Origin: Thermosynechococcus sp. WC_1
GTDB taxonomy: Bacteria > Cyanobacteriota > Cyanobacteriia > Thermosynechococcales > Thermosynechococcaceae
DNA length: 32,870 nucleotides
Direction: 5' to 3'
Assembly: GCA_020058975.1 (NCBI GenBank)
Contig: JAGVDA010000062.1
Location: 1-32,870 of the forward strand
The position numbers and the translations under genes are program-made. The notes beneath the pieces were generated by a model. It had not been told where the DNA came from, ran no database searches, and saw only the letters and a list, made by a program, of their open reading frames with translations. This document shows, piece after piece, positions 10,021-21,804 of the stretch. Numbering within the stretch: position 1 is the first letter of the stretch; each line of letters begins with the position of its first letter.

Positions 10021-10537
10021 AGTCGCAGGTATTGAGTACGAAGTAAGCACCGTCAATGAGCTTGCTATTTTCCCGATGCTGCGGGTATTTGGGACTAACT
10101 TGGCTCCAGAGGACACGAAATCAAAAGAGTATAAGAAGTGGCAAGAGAAATTCCTGTCGCGCTTTGCCGACCCCACCAACCAAGCATCTGTCGCCTACTC
10201 CCTCCGCACCATCATTCCAGAACTGCCAGAATCAGTGGTGAAGTATGTCCTTTACAAAGAAGAGGGTGGCGATCGCCGTGAAGACTTCGTGCTGAACATT
10301 GGGGCAATGGATTTACTGGCCTTAGTGGATGCAATTAGCCCATTGTTGAATGCTCGGGCGGCTGAGTTGGAGGGACGACCTGTAAAGGAGAAGCCTAAGG
10401 GGTTTGGTTCATTTGTAGGAGAGCTAAAAGAATTAGAGAAGGCTGACATTAAAAAGCTGAATGCTCACGAACTTTCCGAGCAACGCGCAGCCCTCCAAGC
10501 CCAACTTGCCGAACTCGAAACCGTTTCTGAGGGATAA
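9995..10537 (+). CDS. Probable tail assembly chaperone partner
   Basis: A 180-residue protein beginning inside the end of the previous gene, with GGAG a few bases upstream of its ATG. The N-terminus is a small beta unit (IKVRVAGIEYEVSTVNELA). The rest is helical, with a charged C-terminal coil (KADIKKLNAHELSEQRAALQ). It looks like the second member of a tail-chaperone pair, but no family motif is decisive. The tape measure would be expected next; here it lies about 13 kb away beyond the small-gene array. Confidence 0.5.
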   Translation: MAIKPIKVRVAGIEYEVSTVNELAIFPMLRVFGTNLAPEDTKSKEYKKWQEKFLSRFADPTNQASVAYSLRTIIPELPESVVKYVLYKEEGGDRREDFVLNIGAMDLLALVDAISPLLNARAAELEGRPVKEKPKGFGSFVGELKELEKADIKKLNAHELSEQRAALQAQLAELETVSEG

Positions 10538-12978: not shown

Positions 12979-13125
12979 TTAGAAATGATCGTAAATCCAT
13001 TGTCGCTGACGGGGTGTCAGCAGGTCATCATCATCCCCTGGTTCGTCAGGGTCTTCAAATGTTTCCCAATAGGCGGCCTGCGCTTGTTCCATACGGTCAA
13101 GCGCATCATCGTATGCGTCGGGCAT
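12979..13125 (-). CDS. Small acidic protein, last gene of the array
   Basis: A 48-residue protein (MPDAYDDALDRMEQAQAAYW...) ending RQRQWIYDHF, with an acidic middle (EDPDEPGDDDD). CAGGAG lies six bases before the ATG. The stop is three bases from the terminator stem, so this is the end of the transcription unit. The tRNA-like element at 13164-13202 precedes it. Acidic, DNA-mimic-like composition is common in anti-host phage proteins, but the function is unknown. Confidence 0.7.
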   Translation of the reverse strand: MPDAYDDALDRMEQAQAAYWETFEDPDEPGDDDDLLTPRQRQWIYDHF

Positions 13126-13163
13126 ATTATTCTCCTGTTTTGAGTGAATCCCCTAAGGGAAAA

Positions 13164-13202
13164 CCCGCTCACGGACTCGAACCGTGATGCTGCCAATGCG
13201 GG
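13164..13202 (-). repeat. tRNA-like element a (T-arm plus acceptor stem)
   Basis: On the minus strand CCCGC pairs with GCGGG and encloses a ten-base linker and the T-arm TCACGG-TTCGAGT-CCGTGA. The second hairpin (TTCCC-TTA-GGGGA) follows at 13149-13161, then the ribosome site of the 48-residue gene. Confidence 0.8.
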
Positions 13203-13210
13203 TGGTTGGG

Positions 13211-13432
13211 CTAAGCTTCTACTGGGTAGGAGAGAGTGTAATCAGCGTGGCAAACTCCATAAGTTTTCCCGTTGATCTTGACCCAGCATCTGCCGCGCCA
13301 ATCATCCTCTTCTATGTCCCAGTCCTCAGCAATTTTGTCGCCTCGGTTAAAGTCAGCCTCTGGTTGATAACCGCGCCCAGCAGGGACTAAGCGGTTATGC
13401 TCAATCATCAATGCGATGTTTGCTTTTAGCAT
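13211..13432 (-). CDS. Hypothetical small protein
   Basis: A 73-residue acidic protein (MLKANIALMIEHNRLVPAG...), with a Trp/Asp-rich centre (AEDWDIEEDDWRGRCW) and a strand-like C-terminus (INGKTYGVCHADYTLSYP). GAGG lies about nine bases upstream of the ATG. It is the first gene after the promoter at ~13565. The tRNA-like element a follows it and a leader of about 130 bases precedes it. No family is recognised. Confidence 0.75.
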   Translation of the reverse strand: MLKANIALMIEHNRLVPAGRGYQPEADFNRGDKIAEDWDIEEDDWRGRCWVKINGKTYGVCHADYTLSYPVEA

Positions 13433-13563
13433 TTCTTTTTCCTCTATGTGGTCTAAACAATTGCCACATCCCTAAAAGGGTTTGGTAGAGGTCGCTGAGA
13501 GGCTTATGGCAAGCAGCTTGGGTATCACACCCACCTTATAGGCTTTCTCTCTCGCTCTATTTC

Positions 13564-13585
13564 ATTATACCATTCATGTGTACAT
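13564..13585 (-). promoter_or_regulatory. Array promoter P4 with TGTACA operator
   Basis: The minus strand has a perfect -10 TATAAT at 13564-13569 and the palindrome ATGTACACAT at 13576-13585, six bases upstream of it. The -35 position is poor, so activation or a weak basal promoter is possible. The leader toward 13432 contains a CCCTTTTAGGG hairpin similar to the second hairpin of the repeat elements. Confidence 0.6.
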
Positions 13586-13615
13586 GGCGGTAGTGGCAAT
13601 ATTCCCGAAGGAAAT

Positions 13616-13661
13616 GCGAACGCCCCGAATCGAACGGGGTGAACCTCCAGTAGGCGATCGC
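13616..13661 (-). repeat. tRNA-like element b
   Basis: T-arm CCCCG-TTCGATT-CGGGG (13623-13639) with a short acceptor pairing GCGA/TCGC, the 5' part lying on a HIP1 site just past the stop of the gene at 13670. A TTTCC..GGGAA hairpin follows. It closes one transcription unit, and promoter P4 lies just downstream. Confidence 0.7.
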
Positions 13662-13669
13662 TATGAAGT

Positions 13670-13825
13670 TTATGGGTCTAGATGATCGTCAGTTAATTTC
13701 TGCATATTCCTAGCGTATCTATCTATGTCTTTGACTGCCTCGCTTAAGTCAATCCTTGAGGCTTTCAACATTAGTTCATGGTTCGCGCTATAAACTGTTC
13801 GCAGAATTTGAGCTTTATTCATCAT
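13670..13825 (-). CDS. Hypothetical small helical protein
   Basis: A 51-residue (or 50, if the second ATG is used) charged helical protein: MMNKAQILRTVYSANHELML..., ending DDHLDP. AAGGAG precedes the start, and its first ATG follows directly on the TGA of the upstream gene, so the two are coupled. No tRNA-like element lies between them, in keeping with the rule that coupled pairs lack one. Function is unknown. Confidence 0.65.
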   Translation of the reverse strand: MMNKAQILRTVYSANHELMLKASRIDLSEAVKDIDRYARNMQKLTDDHLDP

Positions 13826-13984
13826 TCACTCCTTCCCCTGTATCGGGAAAATAACTACTTGGCAATGTGTGTGCCCCAAACGCTCCAGCCGCCTCACTTC
13901 TCGACGTGCTTCATGGATGTCCCATGTGTCGAGAAGTTCGCTGAAGCTGGTTGCGTCTGGGGTGATTGAGAGAATGGCGATCAT
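13826..13984 (-). CDS. Hypothetical small protein, coupled both sides
   Basis: A 52-residue protein (MIAILSITPDATSFSELLDT...) with a basic helix (HEARREVRRLERLG) and a strand-like end (CQVVIFPIQGKE). Its ATG overlaps the stop of the upstream gene (ATGA) and its own TGA abuts the next start. The ribosome site is weak, so translation probably depends on coupling. No family is recognised. Confidence 0.65.
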   Translation of the reverse strand: MIAILSITPDATSFSELLDTWDIHEARREVRRLERLGHTHCQVVIFPIQGKE

Positions 13985-14226
13985 TGTCTTGAGAAATGAC
14001 CGACGATTTGTTTTTTCGCCGTTTGCTCATCCTCTGATAACGAGAACTGCCCATTTCCTTTAGTCTGGCTCCAACTCTGATCCGAGTTTTGCCAAACGTA
14101 TAGACCCTCGTAGTTCTTGTTCGTTCGGTATTCAGAAACAGGAGTCATTTCATCCTCGAAGTCGATTTTGAAAGACCATCCTGTTTCGTCTGCATGGACT
14201 CCTCTAGTGAGGCTTAGAATCTTCAT
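13981..14226 (-). CDS. Hypothetical small protein
   Basis: An 81-residue protein from the ATG that follows GGAG by seven bases (MKILSLTRGVHADETGWSF...). Trp/Tyr-rich strands (GLYVWQNSDQSWSQTKGNGQ) suggest a small beta domain, then a helix (EDEQTAKKQIVGHF). A longer in-frame extension would run back through the tRNA-like element and is unlikely. The stop overlaps the next start. No known family. Confidence 0.7.
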   Translation of the reverse strand: MKILSLTRGVHADETGWSFKIDFEDEMTPVSEYRTNKNYEGLYVWQNSDQSWSQTKGNGQFSLSEDEQTAKKQIVGHFSRQ

Positions 14227-14268
14227 CTTCAATCTCCATTTCTTTACAACATCCGGCGAACCGGAATA

Positions 14269-14316
14269 CCCACCCGCCGAATCGAACGGCGGCACCAAAG
14301 GGTGAACCAATGTGGG
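14269..14316 (-). repeat. tRNA-like element c
   Basis: CCCAC pairs with GTGGG around T-arm CCGCCG-TTCGATT-CGGCGG (14274-14292). The linker contains a CACC-CTTT-GGTG mini-hairpin in the anticodon-arm position. The second hairpin ATTCCGG-TTCG-CCGGAT (14251-14267) has a UUCG tetraloop. Acceptor and T-arm are identical to element l at 18840. Confidence 0.85.
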
Positions 14317-14320
14317 CGAA

Positions 14321-14533
14321 TCAGTCTATTAAATCCAGATCTGCAAGGTTATCTCTTAGATTGATTGCTAAGGTGTCAGCCTGCTCATCTGTTAATCCAG
14401 ACTCAGCCATCTGATAAAGATTTATTTCACGGTCTTCGTTGAGCCAGTTCAGATACAAAGTTGCTTCTGCTTCTGTTCCGTGCCTATAAAGGGTTTCGGT
14501 GTTATAAGCCGTAAACTCAAATGTGGTTTCCAT
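14321..14533 (-). CDS. Hypothetical small acidic protein
   Basis: A 70-residue acidic protein (METTFEFTAYNTETLYRHGT...) with a Glu/Leu-rich helical C-terminus (TDEQADTLAINLRDNLADLD). CAGGAAA lies seven bases before the ATG. Its stop TGA lies five bases before the acceptor strand of element c. Such small acidic proteins are frequent in phage early regions; no specific function is visible. Confidence 0.75.
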   Translation of the reverse strand: METTFEFTAYNTETLYRHGTEAEATLYLNWLNEDREINLYQMAESGLTDEQADTLAINLRDNLADLDLID

Positions 14534-14570
14534 ATTTCTTTCCTGTACGTTAAATCCCCTTTCGAGGAAT

Positions 14571-14616
14571 ACCAGCAGGGGGGAGTCGAACCCCCATTCT
14601 TCCTTTAGACTGCGGT
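14571..14616 (-). repeat. tRNA-like element d
   Basis: T-arm GGGGG-TTCGACT-CCCCC (14579-14595). The acceptor ACCGCAG pairs with CTGC-T-GGT (one bulged T), and its 5' half lies in the last codons of the gene at 14605. A TTCC..GGGGA hairpin follows, then the ribosome site. Confidence 0.75.
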
Positions 14617-14718
14617 AGTGACCTTAAACTCAACCTTGAAGCTGCCTATGAAGCGCTTGAACGCCTTCACAACGGCAACGGCTAACTGGTCACAGAATAA
14701 ACTAATGAGTTGAAGCAT
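14605..14718 (-). CDS. Very small amphipathic protein (37 residues)
   Basis: A 37-residue protein: MLQLISLFCDQLAVAVVKAF, then KRFIGSFKVEF and VTTAV. AAGGAC lies six bases before the ATG. The hydrophobic, then basic, pattern suggests an amphipathic or membrane-touching helix. The C-terminal ...TTAV echoes the ...ATAV of the upstream gene at 14805, perhaps an old duplication. The acceptor strand of element d overlaps its final codons and stop. It could be a toxin-like or membrane-active peptide, but that is only suggested by composition. Confidence 0.6.
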   Translation of the reverse strand: MLQLISLFCDQLAVAVVKAFKRFIGSFKVEFKVTTAV

Positions 14719-14804
14719 GGTCTTGTCCTTGAGTGAAGTATAAGTGCTTTGTGGCTTGCGTCCATACGGGTAGGGCTTACGCCTTTTCGCAGCTCAGGAG
14801 CCTC

Positions 14805-15083
14805 TTAAACTGCTGTTGCCAGCTTCATCATCAACTTAGCTTTCGTATCATTTTTGTGATACTGTACCGCGCGATTGCGGCACTCGCCCCGAAGGAGTCT
14901 TAGTTTTTGCTTTGCCTGTATCACCGCTGGCAGCGCGAGGCTTGCGGGGGCGGGTAGATACAGCTTTCGTGGCTTGCGGATGAGAGTGAGCTTCACTTGG
15001 AACAGGCTCTTGAAGAGGTTCCACAGTGGCTTGACCACTTGATTGACTGCCCACTTCATCGCTTTCTTGATTAGATTGAACAT
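14805..15083 (-). CDS. Basic amphipathic protein overlapping another gene out of frame
   Basis: A 92-residue basic protein starting MFNLIKKAMKWAVNQVVKP, an amphipathic helix with Trp, then a basic body ending KLMMKLATAV. It starts inside the gene at 14848-15414 and shares 236 bases with it in a different frame. Its start region (22 bases up to the ATG) repeats the start region of that gene with two mismatches, good evidence that this internal start is used. No tRNA-like element follows it; the 86-base gap to the next gene holds only weak hairpins. Confidence 0.55.
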   Translation of the reverse strand: MFNLIKKAMKWAVNQVVKPLWNLFKSLFQVKLTLIRKPRKLYLPAPASLALPAVIQAKQKLRLLRGECRNRAVQYHKNDTKAKLMMKLATAV

Positions 15084-15414
15084 TGTATTTATCTCGTAAT
15101 GTTTGTGTGATGTGCTGCTCCAGCTTCTGCTGGTTTGTGGCGATCGCCTGTGTAGTGATGGGCGATTCCTTAGCGGGACACAGCAGCCCCGCGATGACCA
15201 CAGGTGCGGTCGGTGCTTCCTCCGGAGTGGAGAAGCTATCCACGAAGGTTCGCATTAAGCGACCTGCTTCGACCGTCCAGTAGACGGCCTCCATGCAATA
15301 GAATGCCACCAATAATGTGTGGCTGATTGCTGTTGACTTAAAGAAAGCCTTTGCCTCCTCATTGGTCAACTCTCCATAAGCTGCTTTTGCAGCCAATACA
15401 ATTGGATGTGTCAT
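14848..15414 (-). CDS. Hypothetical protein with disordered Pro/Ser/Lys-rich tail
   Basis: A 188-residue protein starting MTHPIVLAAKAAYGELTNEE. The N-terminal half is helical and hydrophobic (SHTLLVAFYCMEAVYWTVEA, ~32-51) and may touch a membrane. The second half is low-complexity and basic (RPRKPRAASGDTGKAKTKTP). The tail is exactly the part overlapped out of frame by the gene at 14805, so its composition may be shaped by the other frame. It is the first gene after promoter P3, whose leader carries an ACGGGC/GCCCGT hairpin. No family is recognised. Confidence 0.65.
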   Translation of the reverse strand: MTHPIVLAAKAAYGELTNEEAKAFFKSTAISHTLLVAFYCMEAVYWTVEAGRLMRTFVDSFSTPEEAPTAPVVIAGLLCPAKESPITTQAIATNQQKLEQHITQTLRDKYNVQSNQESDEVGSQSSGQATVEPLQEPVPSEAHSHPQATKAVSTRPRKPRAASGDTGKAKTKTPSGRVPQSRGTVSQK

Positions 15415-15486
15415 TGTTTTAATCTCGTAATGTTTTAATTGGCCTACGGGCTTTGTAGTGATGCCCGTTTTGTGGCTATGACATCC

Positions 15487-15515
15487 ATTATACAAGATGT
15501 GTACATGGCTGTCAA
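15487..15515 (-). promoter_or_regulatory. Array promoter P3: consensus sigma-70 with operator in the spacer
   Basis: On the minus strand TTGACA (15510-15515) and TATAAT (15487-15492) are separated by exactly 17 bases. The palindrome ATGTACACAT (15497-15506) lies inside the spacer, where a bound repressor would block polymerase. This is the best promoter in the window. Confidence 0.85.
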
Positions 15516-15517
15516 TT

Positions 15518-15566
15518 GCGATGTAGGGGCGCGACCCCTACAGGCAGTCCTTTAGTCTGCGATCGC
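15518..15566 (-). repeat. tRNA-like element e
   Basis: T-arm-like hairpin GTAGGG..CCCTAC (15523-15541) with loop GTCGCGC rather than TTCGATT. Acceptor GCGAT/ATCGC, the 5' half lying in a HIP1 site within the end of the gene at 15552. The -35 of promoter P3 follows within two bases; no second hairpin is present. Confidence 0.65.
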
Positions 15567-15851
15567 ATCGAATGGAACGGTATGACACCCATAAGGGCAT
15601 ACCCAGGCGTTGAATCCTCCGTTATCGCAGGTTCGCTGCTTCTTTATCTTGTTCCATAAGATAGTGGTAGAGACGCGACCAGAAGCCTCGTACTCTTTGA
15701 ATTTTTGAGTGTAGAGTTCATGGTTGAACCCATCGACCTCATCTGCATCCCATTCCGCTGCAATTACGCAGAGGTCATGGAATGGGAGTGCTTTAAGGTT
15801 TTCTCTAGCGTTTTCGTAAGCTTCAGGTGTGTGTGACCATTCCCAAGCCAT
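15552..15851 (-). CDS. Hypothetical phage protein (MAWEWSHT... type)
   Basis: A 99-residue protein. The N-terminal pattern (W.HTPEAYENARENLKAL, then CVIAAEWDADE) recalls small proteins scattered through phage early regions. The C-terminus has four Cys/His-type residues (CDNGGFNAWVCPYGCHTV) that could hold zinc. GGAGAT precedes the ATG and overlaps the stop of the upstream gene, so the two are coupled. Its last codons form the acceptor strand of element e. Function unknown. Confidence 0.75.
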   Translation of the reverse strand: MAWEWSHTPEAYENARENLKALPFHDLCVIAAEWDADEVDGFNHELYTQKFKEYEASGRVSTTILWNKIKKQRTCDNGGFNAWVCPYGCHTVPFDAIAD

Positions 15852-15855
15852 AGTT

Positions 15856-16071
15856 TTATCTCCAGATTGATAGATAGTGTGTGCCCAGCCAAAACTGGGT
15901 TAGTGATGCGTAGCATTTTGGTTGACGGTCAGTGCTGAGTTTGATATTCAGCCCATTGTGTCGGCTGACTGTGCAGCGAATGACAAGTCGCCATCCGGTA
16001 AAGTCAAAACCAAATACGAAGCAAAGTAGCCGATCAAATTCGACTACAGATCCTAAAATCTGTCGTTTCAT
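15856..16071 (-). CDS. Hypothetical small protein
   Basis: A 71-residue protein starting MKRQILGSVVEFDRLLCFVF with AGGAG six bases upstream. It is aromatic and beta-rich in the middle (FDFTGWRLVIRCTVSR). The stop lies inside the ribosome site of the next gene, so they are coupled, and no tRNA-like element separates them, although a CCCAG/CTGGG hairpin lies near the 3' end of the coding region. No family is recognised. Confidence 0.7.
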   Translation of the reverse strand: MKRQILGSVVEFDRLLCFVFGFDFTGWRLVIRCTVSRHNGLNIKLSTDRQPKCYASLTQFWLGTHYLSIWR

Positions 16072-16107
16072 AATCTCTCCTGTGTATAAAATCCGGCGAA
16101 CCGGAAT

Positions 16108-16154
16108 GCGATACGCGGGGAATCGAACCCCGCCTGTGGCTAACCTGCGATCGC
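16108..16154 (-). repeat. tRNA-like element f
   Basis: T-arm GCGGGG-TTCGATT-CCCCGC (16115-16133), acceptor GCGAT/ATCGC with its 5' half on a HIP1 site in the final codons of the gene at 16140. The second hairpin ATTCCGG-TTCG-CCGGAT (16091-16107) is identical to that of element c. Confidence 0.85.
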
Positions 16155-16361
16155 TGGCTGTCTTGTTTCAGACAACCTCATGTACTCACTCATTAGGTCA
16201 ATGGTGGCTAACTGCCCATAGGCTTGAGCCATCAGAACCCAGAGGATACGCTTTGCCTCATCTGATTGGATTGAGGCTGAGTCGAACTCAGTCAATCCAT
16301 TTGCAAAAGGCTTTGGATTGCAAGGGATTGAGTTTGCAAACATTGCGTCTTGAATAGACAT
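16140..16361 (-). CDS. Hypothetical small protein
   Basis: A 73-residue protein (MSIQDAMFANSIPCNPKPFA...) with a helical C-terminal half (AKRILWVLMAQAYGQLATID). I choose the ATG at 16361 because AGGAG lies at proper spacing; the longer frame runs back into the second hairpin of element g. The stop TAG lies within the linker of element f. No family is recognised. Confidence 0.7.
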   Translation of the reverse strand: MSIQDAMFANSIPCNPKPFANGLTEFDSASIQSDEAKRILWVLMAQAYGQLATIDLMSEYMRLSETRQPAIAG

Positions 16362-16400
16362 ATTCTGTTCTCCTGTTGTGTACATCCCTTTCGGGAATAC

Positions 16401-16442
16401 CCCTAGCCACCAGTGAGGTGGCGTGATTCTCTCTAGGGGTTA
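16401..16442 (-). repeat. tRNA-like element g (GCCACC variant)
   Basis: Acceptor ACCCCTAG/CTAGGGGT (8 bp) encloses a linker and the arm GCCACC-TCACT-GGTGGC (16408-16424), then A and the hairpin TTCCC-GAAA-GGGA. Element n at 19564 has the same arm but a different, equally well-paired acceptor, which is direct covariation. Confidence 0.85.
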
Positions 16443-17009
16443 ATCAGCTAGGGTACCGTCATCGTTAAATGAGCGGTCTTCTAACATCTGAGAAATGGCT
16501 TCTCTGCTCGTCTGATACTCATATTCGTCTTGCAGCTTTGTTAGGCACTTGTGAGTAAAATCGCTTAAAGCGTCTTCTAAAAAGCGCTCTGCTAAGGCGT
16601 AGTTATCGTTCGAGTCAATGTACCAATTTGACCCGTCCGTTGAAATCGACGGAGTGCCGTATCGGTAGTTCAAACAGAAGTCACGGCTTCTAATGAGTCT
16701 GGCTACGCTGGTGTGTAGTTTGTATGTTGCTCTGTCCTTGGCGGGGTTCTTCTCTAAGTAGAGAGAGGCTAAGGCATCCCAATCTGCGTTCAGATCGCTG
16801 AACCCTATCTTCCCGCTACGATCAAGGTCAAATTCATTGGGTGTCCCACTGAACCCGTCGAATCCTTCTGAAATATCTTCGTAGACCCATTCCCACCATT
16901 CATTATCTACATTCCAGTCCCAGTATTTCTCTAAGGCTTTCCGCTTTGCCACCTCAGGAAGTTCGTTCCATTGGTAAATAAGCTTTGAACGTGTGACTAA
17001 TTCAGGCAT
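16440..17009 (-). CDS. Widespread phage protein (WWEWVYED-type), function unknown
   Basis: A 189-residue protein from the ATG preceded by AGGAG; a longer upstream frame would read through element h. The N-terminal half shows the pattern of a family seen in many phages: YQWNELPEVAKRKALEKYWD, then EWWEWVYEDI and FDLDRSGKIGFSDL. The C-terminal half (DEYEYQTSREAISQMLED) and the ending ...FNDDGTLAD are also typical. Homologues are sometimes labelled as antitoxin-like, but no activity is established to my knowledge. Its presence supports a phage origin for the array. The stop abuts element g. Confidence 0.75.
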   Translation of the reverse strand: MPELVTRSKLIYQWNELPEVAKRKALEKYWDWNVDNEWWEWVYEDISEGFDGFSGTPNEFDLDRSGKIGFSDLNADWDALASLYLEKNPAKDRATYKLHTSVARLIRSRDFCLNYRYGTPSISTDGSNWYIDSNDNYALAERFLEDALSDFTHKCLTKLQDEYEYQTSREAISQMLEDRSFNDDGTLAD

Positions 17010-17048
17010 AACATTCTCCTGTGTAGATAAAATTCCCTTACGGGAAAT

Positions 17049-17101
17049 GCCAAGGCGAGGAGTCGAACCCCAAGATCTCCGTAGACCTGCCAATCCTTAG
17101 C
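17049..17101 (-). repeat. tRNA-like element h with anticodon-arm-like hairpin
   Basis: Acceptor GCTAAGG/CCTTGGC (7 bp, one G-T), a hairpin AGGTCT-ACGG-AGATCT in the anticodon-arm position, then a T-arm TGGGG-TTCGACT-CCTCG and a discriminator-like A. About 53 bases: the shape of a tRNA lacking the D-arm. The second hairpin TTTCCC..GGGAA follows. Confidence 0.8.
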
Positions 17102-17171
17102 AGCCACCATTTTGACGCTAACGCTCTCAAGGTATCTGTGGCACCATTGCTGCGACGTGTTTTTTAGCGGC

Positions 17172-17312
17172 CTACGCTCCGCCCCTCTTTCGAGGTTGGG
17201 TTAACTCTACCCACACGCACCTCTGTTCTGGCTTGCGCTTGACCCAGTAGCGGCTCGTCTCTGGGACTGGTTTGATGCTCCAGTAAGCTGAGAATGGTTG
17301 ATGCAGAAGCAT
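17172..17312 (-). CDS. Hypothetical small basic protein
   Basis: A 46-residue protein (MLLHQPFSAYWSIKPVPETS...) with Trp and basic residues (RYWVKRKPEQRCVWVEL) and a basic end (RKRGGA). AGGAAG lies five bases before the ATG; a longer frame from 17369 is possible but has no better start. Element h lies about 70 bases downstream. The residue pattern looks coding, but there is no family match. Confidence 0.5.
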   Translation of the reverse strand: MLLHQPFSAYWSIKPVPETSRYWVKRKPEQRCVWVELTQPRKRGGA

Positions 17313-17901
17313 TGCACTTCCTAGGGATGACGCGAAGCCTGATGTCCGAGCCTTTGATGGTAAAACCATTTCCGGTTGGGAGAAGTACTTAGGTCAAGTC
17401 TGTTACGCTAACTGCCTTTGTCCTCGCTCTGAGGTGCAGCCCGCACGACATCAAAAAGAATGGAATGAACCAATGCGGGAGACGTTGCACTCCCATGTGA
17501 ACCTACGGATACATCCTGGGTGGATACAGGCTTGCAGAGGCAGGGGCGAATTAATACGCTAGTCTGGTTTAAGGGTTCCCCACCACATCTAAGTGGCTCC
17601 AGCCCGTACAACATTGGTCGGTGTGTCTGCCTTTGTAACGTGGTGGCAGACCTGCCCGCGTGGATTCTTACCCAGCCCACTTAGGCTGCATCTGACGAAA
17701 ACTGTGTCTGCCTAACCATCGGCATGGGCACTTTATGTTTCAATTCCCTGCTCGTGGAACCCTCACATATTTAGACGGCTTGAGTCGTGCCGTTCCTATT
17801 TATTTGAGTCGTCTGGTCTGACGACCGATATCGATTATTTGATAACCTTGCCCACGGCACTATTCCCGTTACGTGTTCTGTTTTAGGGTCAAAGGTCAAT
17901 G
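17313..17901 (-). other. Gene-poor, hairpin-rich stretch inside the array
   Basis: No convincing gene lies here. GTGCCGT (17787-17793) pairs with ACGGCAC (17854-17860), and inside that span a GTCGTC/GACGAC hairpin (17808-17825) is present. The sequence TTGAGTCGT occurs twice, and AGGCAGACACA occurs twice on the minus strand near 17640-17720. It may hold a structured RNA or a decayed gene. No known RNA family is recognised. Confidence 0.4.
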
Positions 17902-17942
17902 GCCTTGGGACGAATCGAACGCCCCATCAACAACCAGTAGGC
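17902..17942 (-). repeat. tRNA-like element i (weak acceptor)
   Basis: T-arm GGGGCG-TTCGATT-CGTCCC (17907-17925) with one G-T pair. The acceptor is only four pairs (GCCT/AGGC). No second hairpin of the usual type follows; the hairpin-rich gene-poor stretch begins here. Confidence 0.6.
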
Positions 17943-18109
17943 TAACCCCGTTGGGGTAAATAATAGGCGAGGGGTCTACCCTCAACTGTGAACTCTAGAA
18001 GAGTTTGAATGTCTCTGGCAGCCTGTGCCGCCGTTGCCATGTTTTGTAGATTCATCAACCGCAATGCTGCGAATGAATCAGTCTTGGCACGAACTTTAAG
18101 TGATTGCAT
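17942..18109 (-). CDS. Hypothetical small protein, first gene after promoter P2
   Basis: A 55-residue protein (MQSLKVRAKTDSFAALRLMN...) with a helical middle (ATAAQAARDIQTLLEF) and ending YLPQRG. CAGGAG lies at good spacing before the ATG. It follows element j and the P2 leader. It is basic at the start and helical throughout; no family is recognised. Confidence 0.65.
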   Translation of the reverse strand: MQSLKVRAKTDSFAALRLMNLQNMATAAQAARDIQTLLEFTVEGRPLAYYLPQRG

Positions 18110-18147
18110 GATCTTTCTCCTGTACGTGAAATCCCATTACTGGGAAT

Positions 18148-18196
18148 ACAGACGGGCGAACTCGCATCGCTCTGACCTTCTAAATCGGTCGTCCGT
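18148..18196 (-). repeat. tRNA-like element j with anticodon-arm-like hairpin
   Basis: Acceptor ACGGACG/CGTCTGT (7 bp with one wobble), a hairpin ACCGATTTAGAAGGT in anticodon-arm position, T-arm GCGA-TGCGAGT-TCGC, then A and the hairpin TTCCCA..TGGGA. The middle hairpin closely matches that of element t (ACCGATTCGGAAGGT). Confidence 0.75.
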
Positions 18197-18334
18197 AGCT
18201 TTTCCTGTTCCCTTATCGTCAACTCCGCTTCAGGTGGCTTAACCAGGTAATTACGGGTTCCAATGAACCGTTTGTTAAAGCTTGTTGGTTGTTTTTTCTC
18301 TGTTTCAACCTTATGTATACATAATAGCATATCC
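18197..18334 (-). other. Leader of promoter P2
   Basis: The stretch between promoter P2 and element j has no gene with its own ribosome site. A frame stays open through it (KVETEKKQPTSFNKRF...) and reads on through element j, which may be a decayed coding end. Together with element j and the promoter it fills the 338-base gap between 18109 and 18448. Confidence 0.4.
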
Positions 18335-18350
18335 ATGTGTACATTGGCAA
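18313..18350 (-). promoter_or_regulatory. Array promoter P2 with two TGTACA-type operators
   Basis: On the minus strand TTGCCA (18345-18350) and TATTAT (18321-18326) are 18 bases apart. ATGTACACAT (18335-18344) fills the spacer, and a second, fully symmetric palindrome ATGTATACAT (18313-18322) overlaps the end of the -10. Two sites could allow cooperative repression. Confidence 0.8.
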
Positions 18351-18396
18351 GCATTATTTCGATATTTCTTTGATTATCTTTGAATAGCTTCGGAAT

Positions 18397-18446
18397 GCGA
18401 CGAGATGGCATTCCACCATCTCTGTCAGGTTGGTTACTGTTGTCGC
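18397..18446 (-). repeat. tRNA-like element k (degenerate loop)
   Basis: Hairpin AGATGG-TGGAATG-CCATCT (18403-18421) in T-arm position, acceptor GCGAC/GTCGC, the 5' half starting just after the stop of the gene at 18448. The T-loop consensus is lost. It closes a transcription unit; promoter P2 lies downstream. Confidence 0.6.
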
Positions 18447-18447
18447 T

Positions 18448-18579
18448 TTAGAGCGTTGCTAGGAATCGCTCAAATTCTGCCACTTCGTCATCTAGGTCAT
18501 TCTTGGCCTTTTTCATTGCCTTGTGCTGAAGCATTAGGCATCTGATTTGAAGCGTCAGAAGCGTTTTGTCGTCATTCAT
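18448..18579 (-). CDS. Hypothetical very small helical protein
   Basis: A 43-residue charged helical protein (MNDDKTLLTLQIRCLMLQHK...) ending DDEVAEFERFLATL. AGGAG lies at good spacing, and its ATG overlaps the stop of the upstream gene (ATGA), giving coupling with no repeat element between. It looks like a short coiled coil. No family is known. Confidence 0.65.
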   Translation of the reverse strand: MNDDKTLLTLQIRCLMLQHKAMKKAKNDLDDEVAEFERFLATL

Positions 18580-18734
18580 GGTCGCTCTCCTGAATTGGTG
18601 ATTGCTGTCTCATATCCGTGAGCTTGTCGCCATTTCTGTTCTCCTGAGAGAGCTTTGTGGGAGTCAGCCCCAGAATATTTGAGCCAGATACCGCCCAGCG
18701 AGGGCGATTTTATCCATAAGGTGAATTTGTCCAT
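18576..18734 (-). CDS. Hypothetical small protein
   Basis: A 52-residue protein (MDKFTLWIKSPSLGGIWLKY...) with GGAG seven bases before the ATG, and a stop overlapping the next gene. Inside it lies another perfect ribosome site (AGGAGAACAGAAATG) that would start a seven-codon frame. That copy resembles the leader of the gene at 16140-16361, so the gene may be a mosaic built over an old gene start. Confidence 0.55.
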   Translation of the reverse strand: MDKFTLWIKSPSLGGIWLKYSGADSHKALSGEQKWRQAHGYETAITNSGERP

Positions 18735-18756
18735 GATTGTCTCCTGTGTGTTGAAT

Positions 18757-18838
18757 AATCCCTACAGGCGATCGCACAGTACACCGACCCGACCCAATGG
18801 GCGAGGCTGGTGGTTGGCGCGATGACCTGTGTGGGAAT
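18757..18838 (-). repeat. Expanded second hairpin of element l
   Basis: Here the ATTCCC..GGGATT hairpin is extended by an ACAGG/CCTGT stem and opened by a loop of about 57 bases that contains a HIP1 site. All other copies have loops of a few bases. Confidence 0.5.
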
Positions 18839-18839
18839 G

Positions 18840-18878
18840 CCCACCCGCCGAATCGAACGGCGGTGATTCCTTTGTGGG
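18840..18878 (-). repeat. tRNA-like element l
   Basis: Acceptor CCCAC/GTGGG and T-arm CCGCCG-TTCGATT-CGGCGG (18845-18863) with a ten-base linker. Identical stems to element c. It lies just past the stop of the gene at 18882. Confidence 0.85.
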
Positions 18879-18881
18879 TTG

Positions 18882-19115
18882 CTAGTTGGGGGTTGAGACC
18901 TCCCACCACCCTTCATACGGCACTCCGTCTTCGGGATCTTCGTCCGTCATCCGAATGTTGTCGTTTAGTGTTCCGCTGGTAAATCCTTCCGCCATCATTT
19001 TGGCGATTTGATTGTCCGCGGTTTCTTCTAATGCAGGGATATGTTCGGAGATGATCTCGTTATCCTCGCGCCACCAGCGGTATGTAACTGTTTTGCTACG
19101 TTCAAGCTGTTGCAT
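18882..19115 (-). CDS. Hypothetical acidic phage protein (...GWWEV type)
   Basis: A 77-residue acidic protein from the ATG seven bases after AGAGGG (MQQLERSKTVTYRWWREDNE...). A central helix is followed by EGFTSGTLNDNIRMTDEDPE and GVPYEGWWEVSTPN. The ending YxGWWEV is a pattern I associate with small proteins of other phages, though no function is known to me. A longer upstream frame would include the repeat region and is unlikely. Confidence 0.7.
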   Translation of the reverse strand: MQQLERSKTVTYRWWREDNEIISEHIPALEETADNQIAKMMAEGFTSGTLNDNIRMTDEDPEDGVPYEGWWEVSTPN

Positions 19116-19157
19116 ATTGTGTCCCTCTATCGCGTGTAAAATCCCATCACTGGGAAG

Positions 19158-19205
19158 ACCCCCGCCCCGAGTTGAACGGGGCAAGCCTACCTGCTAGGCG
19201 GGAGT
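19158..19205 (-). repeat. tRNA-like element m with anticodon-arm-like hairpin
   Basis: Acceptor ACTCCC/GGGGGT (one wobble), then GCCTA-GCAGG-TAGGC in anticodon-arm position (19185-19199), then T-arm GCCCCG-TTCAACT-CGGGGC (19164-19182). The stop codon of the gene at 19194 lies inside the middle hairpin. The hairpin TTCCCA-GTGA-TGGGA follows. Confidence 0.8.
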
Positions 19206-19523
19206 GTTGGCGTGAATCGCCCAATTGATGACCTCTAAAGAAGGGAATGGTACGCCTAATTCGCGGGGAATTAGCCGTTCTCTCCATTCCTTTCTAGTCG
19301 CGTAGGTGCCATAGTATTTGCCATTACGCTCAAGCACTGCGAAGTAAATCGCTTGCCCATCTAATGAGTCCGTGTAAGCCTCTCCACAAAGGCAGGCTCC
19401 ATAGCCGCCCATGACGGGAGGAACGCACTCAATGCGCCACTGATATGTCTCGTAATCAATCTCATGCCATTGACGAGCATTGGCATAGAGATCATCACGA
19501 AGCTGGTCGTAAATGCTGGACAT
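19194..19523 (-). CDS. Hypothetical protein
   Basis: A 109-residue protein (MSSIYDQLRDDLYANARQWH...) with AGGAAA before the ATG. The middle is aromatic and Cys/Gly-rich (PPVMGGYGACLCGEAYTD, then YFAVLERNGKYYGTYATRKE), suggesting a compact beta-rich domain. Its last codons and stop overlap element m. No family is recognised. Confidence 0.75.
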   Translation of the reverse strand: MSSIYDQLRDDLYANARQWHEIDYETYQWRIECVPPVMGGYGACLCGEAYTDSLDGQAIYFAVLERNGKYYGTYATRKEWRERLIPRELGVPFPSLEVINWAIHANTPA

Positions 19524-19563
19524 AATTTTTTCCTGTGTGTGAATAAATCCTCTTACGAGGAAT

Positions 19564-19607
19564 GCCCATAGCCACCAGCGAGGTGGCGTGATTCTGAATC
19601 TATGGGC
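19564..19607 (-). repeat. tRNA-like element n (GCCACC variant)
   Basis: Acceptor GCCCATAG/CTATGGGC (8 bp perfect) with the arm GCCACC-TCGCT-GGTGGC (19571-19587). The stop codon TAG of the gene at 19600 forms the end of the acceptor strand. The hairpin TTCCTC-GTAA-GAGGA follows. Confidence 0.9.
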
Positions 19608-19800
19608 GTGGAGCGGATAGGTGAGCCTCGTCTACGGGACTCCAGGGAGCGCTTTTAAGGTCAAGGTAGTATTTTGCGACTGGCCCATAACGCTCTCCTG
19701 ACCAAAACTCCCGACCAGTGATGATAAAGTTCCCCCACTGGACTCCATAACAATTGGTGTAGAAGACTTTCTCTCCTATCTCATACTTAAACTCAGGCAT
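19600..19800 (-). CDS. Hypothetical small beta protein
   Basis: A 66-residue protein (MPEFKYEIGEKVFYTNCYGV...) with AGGAG eight bases before the ATG. The pattern IGEKVFY...WGNFIITGRE...YYLDLKSAPWS.VDEAHL is that of a small SH3-like or KOW-like barrel of the kind seen in many small phage proteins. The last codons make the acceptor strand of element n. Function unknown. Confidence 0.75.
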   Translation of the reverse strand: MPEFKYEIGEKVFYTNCYGVQWGNFIITGREFWSGERYGPVAKYYLDLKSAPWSPVDEAHLSAPRP

Positions 19801-19840
19801 AATATTCTCCTGTTTGTGTGTAAATCCCCACGAGGGGAAT

Positions 19841-19898
19841 GCGACCGGAGGGAATCGAACCCTCCAACGGCTTTATGCCGCCACAACCACGCGATCGC
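19841..19898 (-). repeat. tRNA-like element o (acceptor uncertain)
   Basis: T-arm GGAGGG-TTCGATT-CCCTCC (19847-19865). A CGGC-ATAAA-GCCG hairpin precedes it in anticodon-arm position and contains the stop codon of the gene at 19873. The acceptor GCGAT/GTCGC is possible through a HIP1 site but includes a wobble and a long linker. The hairpin ATTCCCC-TCGT-GGGGAT follows. Confidence 0.65.
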
Positions 19899-20427
19899 CT
19901 TTCGCTTCTAGGTGATGTGATGCCATTTTGAGGTAGAGATCAAGCATCTTCTGTCTGTCCTTTAACAGTGACCAACGGGGCATCCCAATGGCCTTCTCCA
20001 TGTATTCCAGCAAAAGCCACTCAATTTGTGTTTGGGCGTATTCTGCAACCAGCGCTGGGTTTTTCCCAAAGCTAGGGTCACTTGGAGCAATGTCGTCAAG
20101 GATATAAGCAGTCGCCTCATCATCTGTGATGGGCTTATAGTCAAACCCATTCTCAATATGTTTTTTGTGGGATAAAACCACGAACTCCCGAAAGAGTTCA
20201 TCATCATCACTCAGGTAAGCGAGTTTAGGGTCTGTGATGAGCGTGCATGGGTTATCCCCATGCTTGTCTTCTTTGAACCCTAAACTCTGGAAAAGTGGAA
20301 TCTCATAAGCATCGACCTTTTGACGGATCAGCTTAGCAAGTGCCATTGCTTCATACAATCGTGAAGCAATACCCAAGAACTCTTGGGATTCAATGACTGC
20401 CTGAAGCTTTGGTGCGTTAAGTTCCAT
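19873..20427 (-). CDS. Hypothetical protein, largest soluble product of this sub-cluster
   Basis: A 184-residue acidic helical protein. AAGGAG is followed at six bases by the ATG at 20427 (MELNAPKLQAV...); an in-frame ATG two codons earlier sits directly on the ribosome site and is less likely. Recognisable stretches are LSDDDELFREFVVLSHKKHI and YAQTQIEWLLLEYMEKAIG. No catalytic motif or family is recognised. Confidence 0.75.
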   Translation of the reverse strand: MELNAPKLQAVIESQEFLGIASRLYEAMALAKLIRQKVDAYEIPLFQSLGFKEDKHGDNPCTLITDPKLAYLSDDDELFREFVVLSHKKHIENGFDYKPITDDEATAYILDDIAPSDPSFGKNPALVAEYAQTQIEWLLLEYMEKAIGMPRWSLLKDRQKMLDLYLKMASHHLEAKGDRVVVAA

Positions 20428-20465
20428 ATTCATCTCCTTCTAAAAATCGGCTGAGTTGCCGAAAA

Positions 20466-20502
20466 CCTAGCCGCCGAATCGAACGGCGGAATACCTCCTA
20501 GG
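20466..20502 (-). repeat. tRNA-like element p
   Basis: Acceptor CCTAG/CTAGG, T-arm CCGCCG-TTCGATT-CGGCGG (20471-20489), linker of eight bases. The stop TAG of the gene at 20498 is part of the acceptor strand. The following hairpin is TTTTCGGC..GCCGA. Confidence 0.85.
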
Positions 20503-20686
20503 TGATATTGACTTGACCAACGACATTGCCGTTACGGTCAATCAGTGACTGAATGCATGGGGCATCACCTAGCCCTCCCTTCTCGATATTATTAGCAAGA
20601 TTTCGTAGAATCCTGCCCACTTCATCTTCAGGGAAATTCTCAAATGCAGCATTGCCACATCTGATTTCGAGAGTAACTTTGTCCAT
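20498..20686 (-). CDS. Hypothetical small phage protein (NAAFE type)
   Basis: A 62-residue protein from the ATG after GGAGAAAAGACA (MDKVTLEIRCGNAAFENFPE...). The arrangement of a strand, NAAFE, a helix with ILRNLANNIE.GG, and a closing DRNGNVVGQVNIT strand recalls small proteins found in many phage genomes, function unknown. A longer frame starting inside the T-arm of element q is spurious. The stop lies in the acceptor strand of element p. Confidence 0.75.
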   Translation of the reverse strand: MDKVTLEIRCGNAAFENFPEDEVGRILRNLANNIEKGGLGDAPCIQSLIDRNGNVVGQVNIT

Positions 20687-20720
20687 TGTCTTTTCTCCAT
20701 AAATCCGCTGAATTGCGGAA

Positions 20721-20759
20721 TCCCAGGATGCGGAATCGAACCGCATCTACTCCAACTGG
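20721..20759 (-). repeat. tRNA-like element q
   Basis: Acceptor CCCAG/CTGGG, T-arm ATGCGG-TTCGATT-CCGCAT, linker of nine bases. The second hairpin TCCGC..GCGGA follows. It starts directly after the stop codon of the gene at 20761. Confidence 0.85.
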
Positions 20760-20760
20760 G

Positions 20761-20919
20761 TTATGACCAGATGATTTGCCATCCGGTACGCTGCCAATCT
20801 AAAAGCTGTTGCCGCCATGTGTCAGCGGCTAACTTGTAGAGAATCTGAGCGTCTTGGTAAACTTCCAAGCGACCATCATTTGCAGCGCGAACTGTGAACG
20901 TCTTGTTGTAACGTGCCAT
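20761..20919 (-). CDS. Hypothetical small protein
   Basis: A 52-residue protein (MARYNKTFTVRAANDGRLEV...) with AAAAGGAC before the ATG and a Trp-rich C-terminal part (ADTWRQQLLDW, then GWQIIWS). It looks like a strand-strand-helix unit. Flanked by elements q and r. It has no recognised family. Confidence 0.7.
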   Translation of the reverse strand: MARYNKTFTVRAANDGRLEVYQDAQILYKLAADTWRQQLLDWQRTGWQIIWS

Positions 20920-20959
20920 TGTCTTTGTCCTTTTGTTTGGTGAAATCCCTTGCGGGAAT

Positions 20960-21002
20960 AACGGAGCAGGGACGCGAACCCTGCTGACGGTCTTTAGCCG
21001 TT
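20960..21002 (-). repeat. tRNA-like element r
   Basis: Acceptor AACGG/CCGTT, arm AGCAGGG-TTCGCGT-CCCTGCT (20965-20985). The acceptor 5' strand is made by the last codons of the gene at 20994 and the linker holds its stop codon. The hairpin ATTCCC-GCAA-GGGAT follows. Confidence 0.85.
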
Positions 21003-21275
21003 TCCGCTGAGAACCTGCTGGAATGCAGCAGACTCTTCGTGAGCATTCACATCTGTCAGTAGATCAACCGCCATCGCTGGGGTTAATTTGTTGGCAGCAT
21101 GAACGCGATTCGTGAGACTAATGAAATAGTCATCTCGATCTTCGGGAAGAAACTTCTCAAGATGAGAGACATCATAGCCGTCATCAGCAAAGGCAATGAT
21201 CGCAATGCTAATCGCATCGCTAGTTGACCATTCAATCGCTTGGGCTACATCTTCAAATCGTGTGAGTGTAATCAT
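20994..21275 (-). CDS. Hypothetical protein
   Basis: A 93-residue acidic helical protein (MITLTRFEDVAQAIEWSTSD...) with AGGAG six bases before the ATG. Strand-like IAIIAFADDGYDV is followed by helical LPEDRDDYFISLTNRVHAAN. The C-terminal codons (SGNG) lie in element r. No family is known. Confidence 0.75.
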   Translation of the reverse strand: MITLTRFEDVAQAIEWSTSDAISIAIIAFADDGYDVSHLEKFLPEDRDDYFISLTNRVHAANKLTPAMAVDLLTDVNAHEESAAFQQVLSGNG

Positions 21276-21309
21276 TTTATCTCCTGTACATTAGATCCCT
21301 TTCGGGAAT

Positions 21310-21349
21310 GCCTATGCCCCGAATCGAACGGGGCAGAAACCATTTAGGC
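21310..21349 (-). repeat. tRNA-like element s
   Basis: Acceptor GCCTA/TAGGC, T-arm GCCCCG-TTCGATT-CGGGGC (21316-21334), linker of ten bases, then A and the hairpin TTCCC-GAAA-GGGA. The reading frame of the gene at 21312 runs through the whole T-arm and stops in the acceptor's 3' strand. Confidence 0.9.
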
Positions 21350-21584
21350 TGACTAAATAAAAAGCTGCAAATTCTTGTAAGTTTTTTTGGCTTTCTTTGT
21401 GTTTTTTGTCACAAAACGATTCCGCTGTAATTAACAGAATCGCTTTTAGTGTTCCGTGGTTATACTCTGTGCTTGGGTCAAGACCCCCACATCGGAGCGC
21501 CTTGTCTACGTTCTCTAAATAAGCTTTCTGAAAAACAGCGCTTTGGTTAAACGCATTTTCCCTCATGTCCTCGCGTGTACTCAT
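21312..21584 (-). CDS. Hypothetical protein whose C-terminus is encoded by a repeat element
   Basis: A 90-residue protein (MSTREDMRENAFNQSAVFQK...), mostly helical, with AAGGAG before the ATG. It is the first gene behind promoter P1. The final residues (CPVRFGA) are read from the T-arm of element s, and the stop TAG lies in the acceptor strand. In most other genes the stop precedes the T-arm, so here an older stop may have been lost. No family is recognised. Confidence 0.75.
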   Translation of the reverse strand: MSTREDMRENAFNQSAVFQKAYLENVDKALRCGGLDPSTEYNHGTLKAILLITAESFCDKKHKESQKNLQEFAAFYLVSLNGFCPVRFGA

Positions 21585-21804
21585 TTTGTCTCCTTCTATA
21601 AATCCGCGTTATTGCGGAATACAACCGTCAGGACTACTCGAACCTGACTAAGACCTTCCGAATCGGTAGGTTGTAGAAATACCCCAGCTCCCTATACGCG
21701 GCACGCAATCCTCAGGATGACCAACGGGGTTATTCGGCGCAATCGCCTGCTTGTAAAATGCTTTGCGATTGGATGTGTAGTGCTTTCCTTTCGCTCATGT
21801 ACTT
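21585..21804 (-). other. Leader of promoter P1
   Basis: This leader carries element t near its gene-proximal end and no gene with a convincing ribosome site. A 22-codon frame (MSERKALHIQSQSILQ...) starts within a few bases of the predicted transcription start and could be leaderless, but has no other support. Confidence 0.4.
21621..21674 (-). repeat. tRNA-like element t with anticodon-arm-like hairpin
   Basis: Acceptor ACAACC/GGTTGT, a hairpin ACCGATTCGGAAGGT in anticodon-arm position, and T-arm TCAGG/CCTGA with an enlarged loop beginning TTCGAGT. The second hairpin TCCGC..GCGGA follows. Like element j it lies in a promoter leader and lacks a D-arm. Confidence 0.75.

Follow-up and report, generated by a model that had tools for sequence, protein, structure and literature searches.

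Transfer RNAs punctuate messages in mitochondria, and mascRNA is a product of the tRNA-processing machinery. Between the early genes of phage T7 lie RNase III sites, and in integrons a structured element, attC, follows each small gene of a one-directional array. According to the accessible part of PMC11658184, plant mitochondrial t-elements are tRNA-like structures at mRNA ends that are cut by tRNA-processing enzymes and define these ends via RNase P and RNase Z. Likewise, mascRNA appears in the available text of PMC12941219 as a small tRNA-like product of that machinery. Here we analysed a 32,870-nucleotide stretch assigned to Thermosynechococcus sp. WC_1 (the window; contig JAGVDA010000062.1), in which an array of small genes is divided by 20 tRNA-like elements. 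Like t-elements and punctuating tRNAs, they sit at mRNA gene junctions. Unlike t-elements, which are organellar relatives of tRNA genes with predicted typical tRNA-like folds, they have no anticodon arm, lie in a phage, number up to 20 per array and are accompanied by a second hairpin; their cleavage is what we infer. They resemble the mascRNA-menRNA family (RF01684; MALAT1/NEAT1 3′ ends) as small tRNA-like RNAs, and differ from it in belonging to bacteriophage mRNA, in their many copies and in having stop codons inside the element. Element E06 scored 22.9 bits against the gathering threshold of 42.5 for RF01684 and so falls outside it. Plant t-elements and mascRNA are the closest functional parallels, and the likeness of the elements to tRNA is structural. 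The window equals IMG/VR contig 2830687482_000004 and is contig C407 of its assembly. Because it encodes terminase, head maturation protease, major head, portal and integrase-like proteins it was taken as a phage, and because the assembly holding C407 encodes photosystem I PsaA/PsaB the host was taken as a cyanobacterium.

The 20 elements, E01 to E20, were placed at 13162-21674 on the minus strand, which is the coding strand of the small genes, and nearly all lie at junctions, as an earlier note on this DNA had claimed for about 20 copies. A strict search of both strands for a TTCRANY loop on a stem of at least 5 bp found 13 T-arms in the array, all on the minus strand and none on the plus strand; 500 Markov sequences averaged 0.058 and never held more than 1. 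The seven elements without a strict 7-nt TTCRANY loop were looked for on the minus strand only. Across all 20 elements the five loop-adjacent T-stem pairs were standard in 99 of 100 cells (96 Watson–Crick), whereas 2000 shuffles of the 3′ letters among elements averaged 53.4 such cells and never exceeded 74, in agreement with the earlier observation that the stems differ in sequence yet remain complementary. The first T-stem pair was GC (G53-C61) in 17 of 20. The distance from the loop end to an ATTCC-like motif was 12 nt in 17 elements and 13 nt in three; 12 nt corresponds to tRNA positions 61-72, and the motif therefore starts at position 73. Position 73 was A in 15 elements, position 74 was T in 17, and position 75 was T in all 20.

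The acceptor side was examined with two controls. The summed score of the 12-bp stack was 222.4, compared with 184.1 (standard deviation 4.6, maximum 197.2) in 500 shuffles of the upstream bases, and 13 elements were individually below 0.05. When T stems were limited to 6 bp, pairing with the element's own acceptor strand reached 0.79 per bp versus 0.53 with foreign 3′ strands and 0.54 with shuffled ones. MAFFT failed to align the acceptor strands over the variable linkers. The Markov search, the T-stem shuffles and the stack-score shuffles together ruled out chance hairpins. The acceptor/T-arm fold is well supported, and the sequence shows that the RNA of each junction can fold into a T-loop-capped stack of about 12 bp. 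With tRNA (RF00005) the elements share the TTCRANY loop closed by G53-C61 (13 of 20 by the strict search) and the 12 nt from T-loop to position 73 (a 7 + 5 bp stack). They do not form a cloverleaf with an anticodon arm, and ARAGORN found no tRNA in the window, which ruled out intact or decayed tRNAs and left standing the claim that no copy is a full tRNA; beyond the window it called no element a tRNA, except for one doubtful tRNA-Arg over an element of locus L057. Rfam gave no match at gathering scores in the window, and tmRNA (RF00023) was rejected, its model matching no more than 17 nt of the E17 T-arm (16.2 bits against 47). The earlier description of loop and stack needed correction for six loops that are not TTCRANY, for E01, whose loop has 10 nt, and for the length of the stacked helix, about 12 bp; a second hairpin after most elements had to be added.

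This second hairpin opens at the ATTCC-like motif, typically as ATTCC-loop-GGAT, and precedes the next gene. Its stem had at least 5 bp in 13 of the 15 window elements measured (E09 and E10 being without it); separate folding revealed one at E01, E15 and E17, and by eye E12 and E16 have none. An open reading frame (ORF) with a Shine–Dalgarno (SD) sequence starts 35-43 nt past the 3′ strand in 12 of 20 elements and 105 nt past it in one, and a scripted search found no SD-bearing downstream ORF for the other seven. An upstream ORF was accepted for 17 elements, those before E06 and E15 having no SD match at the first ATG; E01 and E13 have no preceding ORF, and E11 has only a 41-aa frame without SD. 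The stop codon of the upstream gene overlaps the element in 11 of the 17 cases, lies fully upstream in six and falls past position 73 in none.

The earlier note had likened the elements to the acceptor/T half of a tRNA. That fold was upheld, but the element is probably more than this half, since the GG or AG of its linker goes with position 55 of the T-loop. Covariation was studied in alignment A4, which comprises 18 marine sequences (15 distinct, with several elements from one contig among the rows); alignments A1, A2, A3 and A5 entered no count. The A4 linker forms a small hairpin at columns 11-13/20-22. When the three helices were taken together, 93.2% of cells were paired versus 71.2% in shuffled alignments (0/500), and the covariation score was 0.553 versus 0.171 (0/500), with 0.226 as the best value when the partners were slid. 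These are structure-pair counts and not an R-scape result, and they show strong covariation of pairing in the marine set; a lack of covariation, by which the earlier note would have been refuted, was thus not seen there. Pairs changed on both sides were found in the acceptor (4/5), the T helix (4/5) and the linker helix (2/3). Furthermore, the linker-hairpin loop ends in GG with TTC T-loops and in AG with TGC T-loops, and many linkers of the window and related contigs, among them those upstream of L135 672 and 5506, have GG separated from the acceptor strand by just N2-3. In a hand-assigned table of families, 21 of the 23 with T55 have GG, and all 5 with G55 have AG (Fisher p 2e-4). Four clear elements found later in isolates fit the same rule: P-SSP7 602, S-TIP37 and Syn5 combine TTC with GG, and P-SSP7 20632 combines TGC with AG; for P-GSP1 and P-SSP7 1002 neither GG nor AG could be assigned. 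G19 and C56 are constant across elements. The association of GG/AG with T-loop position 55 likely represents the 18-55 contact of the tRNA elbow.

We found that the array is not the only site of such elements, and absence from other cyanophages, which would have counted against the earlier note, was not borne out. In the same assembly, contig C216 carries a related array with eight elements and one more, all on the small-gene strand, and contig C245 carries three. These contigs have homologous genes and element copies in common with the window. Near-identical elements are repeated inside and across the window and C216, among them a 44-nt near-identical copy of E09 in C216. C216 (L135-L137) also encodes a TrwC relaxase and a TraG/TraD-like coupling protein and has genes in common with the window phage; it is perhaps a phage-plasmid. 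Pattern scans of IMG/VR returned at least 120, 44, 18 and 9 stretches with many chance matches, and elements were accepted in 33 contigs among the matches listed (21 and 10 in two readings, plus L158 and L164). These fall into a PaV-LD-like group and a set of marine T7-like contigs, which hold at most four elements (L154), with L015, L016/L048/L132 and L147 as single cases. The RNA polymerases of two marine contigs, L167 and the contig of L158, mark them as T7-like, and in both the elements precede the polymerase gene. E15 has a 57-nt match of 82% to a PaV-LD-type element. In PaV-LD one element has a mismatched first pair and another an inverted loop: at 15096 (L139), the loop between the intact arms reads AGTCGAA instead of TTCGACT, as though it had been turned around through the hairpin.

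A covariance model built from the marine set only, R1, extended these findings. It matched L147 (expectation value, E, 1.1e-5), L138 (3.3e-5) and five places in L135 (4e-4 to 0.006), and within the window 20945-21010 (E 0.012). In eight named cyanophage genomes R1 matched P-SSP7 at 602-651 (3.8e-6), 20632-20679 (5.9e-4) and 1002-1065 (0.018) and Syn5 at 19839-19904 (E 0.0018), while Ma-LMM01 and CL131 had matches only above E 0.1. The pattern had missed P-SSP7 and Syn5, and absences found by pattern search alone are therefore weak. The pattern matched 5 of 194 relatives, and among these five, scans of the fetched loci showed elements only in the window's own assembly. When GTDB genome contigs were scanned for the pattern, none of the 56 stretches returned held a convincing element, and one had a weak score (L226). 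Two candidates were rejected. L069 is a real tRNA/tmRNA cluster, and a T-arm before the PaV-LD integrase gene equals a host tRNA 3′ end. This tRNA 3′-end copy (L139, about 10243-10290; also in L042, L049, L077 and L096) has the same T-arm/acceptor sequence as the host tRNA (C248) and is probably attP.

T7-like cyanophages carry elements between early genes ahead of the RNA polymerase gene and also ahead of the capsid gene. The P-SSP7 20632 and Syn5 elements occupy the gap before the major capsid gene. We collected 26 records matching the P-SSP7 junction and inspected P-SSP7 and six others, plus Syn5; an element was present at the capsid junction of P-SSP7, P-SSP3, P-GSP1, S-TIP37 and Syn5, that of S-TIP37 being identified by script and eye and not by the covariance model. 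At the same junction the related phage NATL1A-7 has an intact tRNA-Gly with anticodon TCC, confirmed by ARAGORN; a tRNA gene and an element can therefore occupy the same place. The elements thus share the pre-capsid position with a phage-encoded tRNA gene and differ from such genes in having no anticodon arm and, apart from the doubtful L057 call, in not being ARAGORN tRNAs. In S-RIP2 (L289, about 198-232) and P-SSP10 (L290), a long hairpin with loop CACCTCAGAGTCGGA precedes the capsid gene.

To interpret these elements we considered how host tRNAs are matured. We found 48 host tRNA genes and examined 30, of which 25 lie outside a tRNA array on contig C559. CCA was encoded in 0 of these 25; TT came next in 22 and T in 24. 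tRNA 3′ ends without encoded CCA are made by RNase Z, and because CCA is unencoded in these genes, host tRNA 3′ ends should be made by this enzyme. A fragment of an RNase Z gene lies at a contig edge of the host assembly (covering 114 of the 302 model positions and scoring under the curated cut-off). The C559 cluster (59683-63066) has 15 tRNA matches, and all five examined encode CCA, unlike the 25 other genes; it resembles a mobile tRNA array. According to the accessible text of PMC4919913, a review, the elbow is the point from which both RNase Z and RNase P measure. The elements copy what RNase Z reads: a likely elbow, about 12 bp of stacked helix, position 73 and then UU. Moreover, 11 of 17 upstream stops overlap the element and none lies past position 73, so that a cut after 73 would spare every stop, whereas an RNase P cut at +1 would damage 11 of 17.

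We therefore favour, as a somewhat probable reading of the sequence, that anticodon-less mini-tRNAs punctuate the polycistronic phage mRNA and that host RNase Z cuts after position 73. The GG or AG of the D-loop-like linker would dock on the T-loop, and RNase Z would clamp the elbow, measure to position 73 and cut 3′ of it. The upstream message would retain its stop codon and finish with a tRNA-like 3′ structure to which a CCA tail might be added. A 5′ hairpin at the start of the downstream message would shield it against RNase E-type decay. At some junctions RNase P might also cut 5′ of the acceptor. The early-gene and pre-capsid elements of T7-like cyanophages would then be the counterpart of the T7 RNase III sites, which they resemble in being structured RNA between early-operon genes of T7-like phages; they differ in mimicking tRNA instead of forming a long RNase III hairpin, and the enzyme is likely a different one. 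The wider proposal is that cyanobacteria-infecting phages of several lineages share an elbow-bearing, anticodon-less mini-tRNA code. It would be read by RNase Z, the maturase of the host's CCA-less tRNAs, would break operons up into single-gene messages whose ends are protected, and would be interchangeable with true tRNA genes; we regard this as having close to an even chance, with doubt slightly the stronger.

A number of results weigh against the RNase Z reading or its parts. Seven elements (E06, E08, E09, E11, E12, E15 and E17) were individually not below 0.05 for the stack, and foreign 3′ strands paired equally well with E09 (8/19), E12 (18/19) and E15 (11/19). The loops of E03, E07, E10, E11, E14 and E16 are not TTCRANY, position 73 is other than A in five of 20, and E09, E10, E12 and E16 (4/20) have no clear second hairpin. 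In A4 the measure of further pair types was no higher than in shuffles (213/500), and the RNAalifold covariation term on the marine alignment was modest (-2.37). The GG rule is broken by two T55 families, E03 and L135 1218, the GG of E08 is doubtful in the hand-assigned table, and the atypical-loop elements E07, E10, E14, E16 and L135 1720 stand outside the 18/55 family table. An automatic rule, which took 48 of 58 rows as elements and set 10 aside as non-elements, assigned 24 GG and 5 AG among TTC rows with 6 uncalled, and 0 GG and 4 AG among TGC rows with 9 uncalled, part of its AG calls being a choice among equal acceptor placements. R1 recovered only one of the 20 window elements below E 0.1 and was not significant on PaV-LD-type elements in L139, L049 and L131, probably owing to differing linkers in these and the other window elements; it had no match in Pf-WMP3, Pf-WMP4, A-4L or PSS2, in the whole of P-SCSP1i or in the first 50 kb of S-CRES3. 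At the capsid junction, the stacks of P-SSP7, P-SSP3 and P-GSP1 have 11 bp with the first pair mismatched, and the hairpin of S-RIP2 and P-SSP10 is of a different kind, without a T-loop. Position 73 of P-SSP7 602 is C, and S-TIP37 reads T and then AT. Finally, the accessible portion of PMC9692554 credits antisense RNAs with protecting P-SSP7 messages; the same portion reports that P-SSP7 infection raises host RNase E.

RNase P could instead be the main enzyme, cutting 5′ of the acceptor alone or with RNase Z and freeing a mini-RNA as with mascRNA and plant t-elements. In the available text of PMC4919913, RNase P grips the elbow together with the acceptor/T-stem stack, its need for a D-loop appearing dispensable, and titles in the reference list of PMC11143913 name polycistronic mRNAs and the C4 RNA of phages P1 and P7, a single RNA and not an array, as RNase P substrates. 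Six of the 17 upstream stops would survive such a cut, lying fully upstream of the element. The +1 cut would, as noted, remove or break the other 11, and in marine contigs too the stop is often inside the acceptor strand or linker, so that we think this enzyme unlikely as the principal one. Nor do we find it probable that the elements go uncut, the tRNA-like fold and second hairpin acting as a rigid stabiliser or insulator of the mRNA against exonucleases and the spread of translation. Stable helices at most junctions, and another hairpin type that can fill the same junction, speak for such a role; it leaves unexplained the conserved T-loop, the 12-nt measure, the 18/55 association and the UU after 73, as well as the swap with an intact tRNA gene, and we rate it below RNase P.

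Two further explanations place the elements outside RNA processing, and both seem to us highly improbable. If they were DNA recombination sites like integron attC, the array would be a cassette array, in keeping with its one-directional small genes, each with an element, with the recurrence of near-identical elements in the window and C216, and with the inverted loop in PaV-LD. The T-loop consensus, the constant G19 and C56 and the compensatory changes point to RNA, T7-like isolates have only one to three elements, and no core sequence is common to the outer stems; on a reading of these stems for the attC core boxes, attC membership was rejected, the elements being set apart by their tRNA T-loop and the evidence for RNA structure. 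Alternatively, the hairpin pair could control transcription, as an intrinsic terminator or attenuator or as an antitermination RNA like that of HK022 put, which also has two adjacent hairpins. The array has more terminator-like matches than expected (23 on the two strands versus 8.4), and some of them are second hairpins or T-arms. On the coding strand, however, just four second hairpins of the 20 elements are terminator-like, and in the marine set what mostly comes after the second hairpin is ATTAAAC, ATCAACC or the like and not a T run, so that an intrinsic terminator at each element was rejected; a strong one at every junction would silence the array.

Coordinates of the tRNA-like elements and of the gene array in the window (second hairpin, hairpin opening at the ATTCC-like motif)
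Feature	Position	Strand	Description
E01	21602..21674	-	acceptor ACAACC/GGTTGT; D-like hairpin ACC-GATTCGGAA-GGT; T stem GTCAGG/CCTGAC; 10-nt loop TTCGAGTAGT; A; second hairpin
E02	21295..21349	-	GCCTA aatGGtttc TGCCCCG[TTCGATT]; A; second hairpin
E03	20945..21002	-	loop TTCGCGT (C58); second hairpin; marine covariance model match, E 0.012
E04	20704..20760	-	CCCAG ttGGagta GATGCGG[TTCGATT]; A; second hairpin
E05	20447..20503	-	ACCTAG gaGGtatt CCGCCG[TTCGATT]; second hairpin
E06	19825..19898	-	7+5 bp; long linker with hairpin; sub-threshold similarity to mascRNA and tRNA-Sec
E07	19548..19607	-	loop CTCGCTG; 12 bp; second hairpin
E08	19142..19205	-	loop TTCAACT; linker hairpin GCCTA-GCAGG-TAGGC; second hairpin
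E09	18838..18879	-	ACCCAC aaaGGaatca CCGCCG[TTCGATT]; terminal mismatch; no clear second hairpin
E10	18396..18446	-	atypical loop TGGAATG; 12 bp; no clear second hairpin
E11	18132..18197	-	leader, 3′ of promoter-like site; loop TGCGAGT; D-like hairpin GACC-GATTTAGAA-GGTC (AG); second hairpin
E12	17900..17943	-	AGCCT actGGttgttga TGGGGCG[TTCGATT]; acceptor not significant; no second hairpin
E13	17033..17101	-	7+5 bp (GCTAAGG/CCTTGGC, TGGGG/CCTCG); attGG; second hairpin
E14	16384..16440	-	loop CTCACTG; 12 bp; second hairpin
E15	16091..16154	-	GCGAT... GCGGGG[TTCGATT]; 13-nt 3′ strand; acceptor not significant; UUCG second hairpin
E16	15517..15566	-	5-nt loop TCGCG; linker hairpin GCAG-ACTAAAGGA-CTGC; consensus promoter directly after
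E17	14554..14616	-	ACCGCAG tctaaaGGaagaat GGGGG[TTCGACT]; 13-nt 3′ strand; acceptor not significant; second hairpin
E18	14252..14317	-	GCCCAC attGGttcaccctttggtg CCGCCG[TTCGATT]; UUCG second hairpin; copies in contig C216
E19	13601..13661	-	GCGATCG... CCCCG[TTCGATT]; one acceptor mismatch; second hairpin
E20	13149..13203	-	ACCCGC attGGcagca TCACGG[TTCGAGT]; second hairpin
Small-gene array	12979..21584	-	small genes split by the elements; no Pfam family above cut-off in the 10 tested

The array was compared with other collections. Pfam assigned no family above cut-off to the 10 small-gene proteins tested; blastn found no match of the window array in a phage collection or of the C216 array in plasmids, and tblastn of one array protein against plasmids gave none. 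Between E12 and E13, about 800 nt of the minus strand (17102-17900) have no accepted SD-led ORF. This noncoding gap has no Rfam match and no relative among the fetched loci, and its folding energy is ordinary (z -0.03). Promoter-like sites on the minus strand at 15487-15515 and 18321-18350 match the consensus at 12/12 and 10/12 positions. An exact TGTACACAT motif adjoins them; it occurs at 13576, 15497, 18335 and 21871 (minus strand) and 21816 (plus strand), and with one mismatch allowed there were 11 matches in the window versus 4.9 expected. The motif may be a repressor operator.

Among the top matches of literature searches that took in few subscription papers there was no phage array of this kind, which does not prove its absence from print. 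One apparent relative, the 'tRNA-like' gene of halovirus HF2, was rejected as an unrelated attP according to the accessible text of PMC8707807. tRNA-like punctuation of messages is known, and what is new is the phage setting and the minimal architecture. If the RNase Z reading is true, it would explain the processing of polycistronic mRNA in some cyanophages and would be directly testable in two long-studied isolates, P-SSP7 and Syn5. The elements would be a natural set of minimal elbow-containing tRNA mimics for the enzymology of RNase Z and RNase P. In P-SSP7 infection, protected message ends would add a second means of survival beside the antisense RNAs. Furthermore, some phage tRNA genes would exist for punctuation and not for translation, which would give them a concrete non-translational role.

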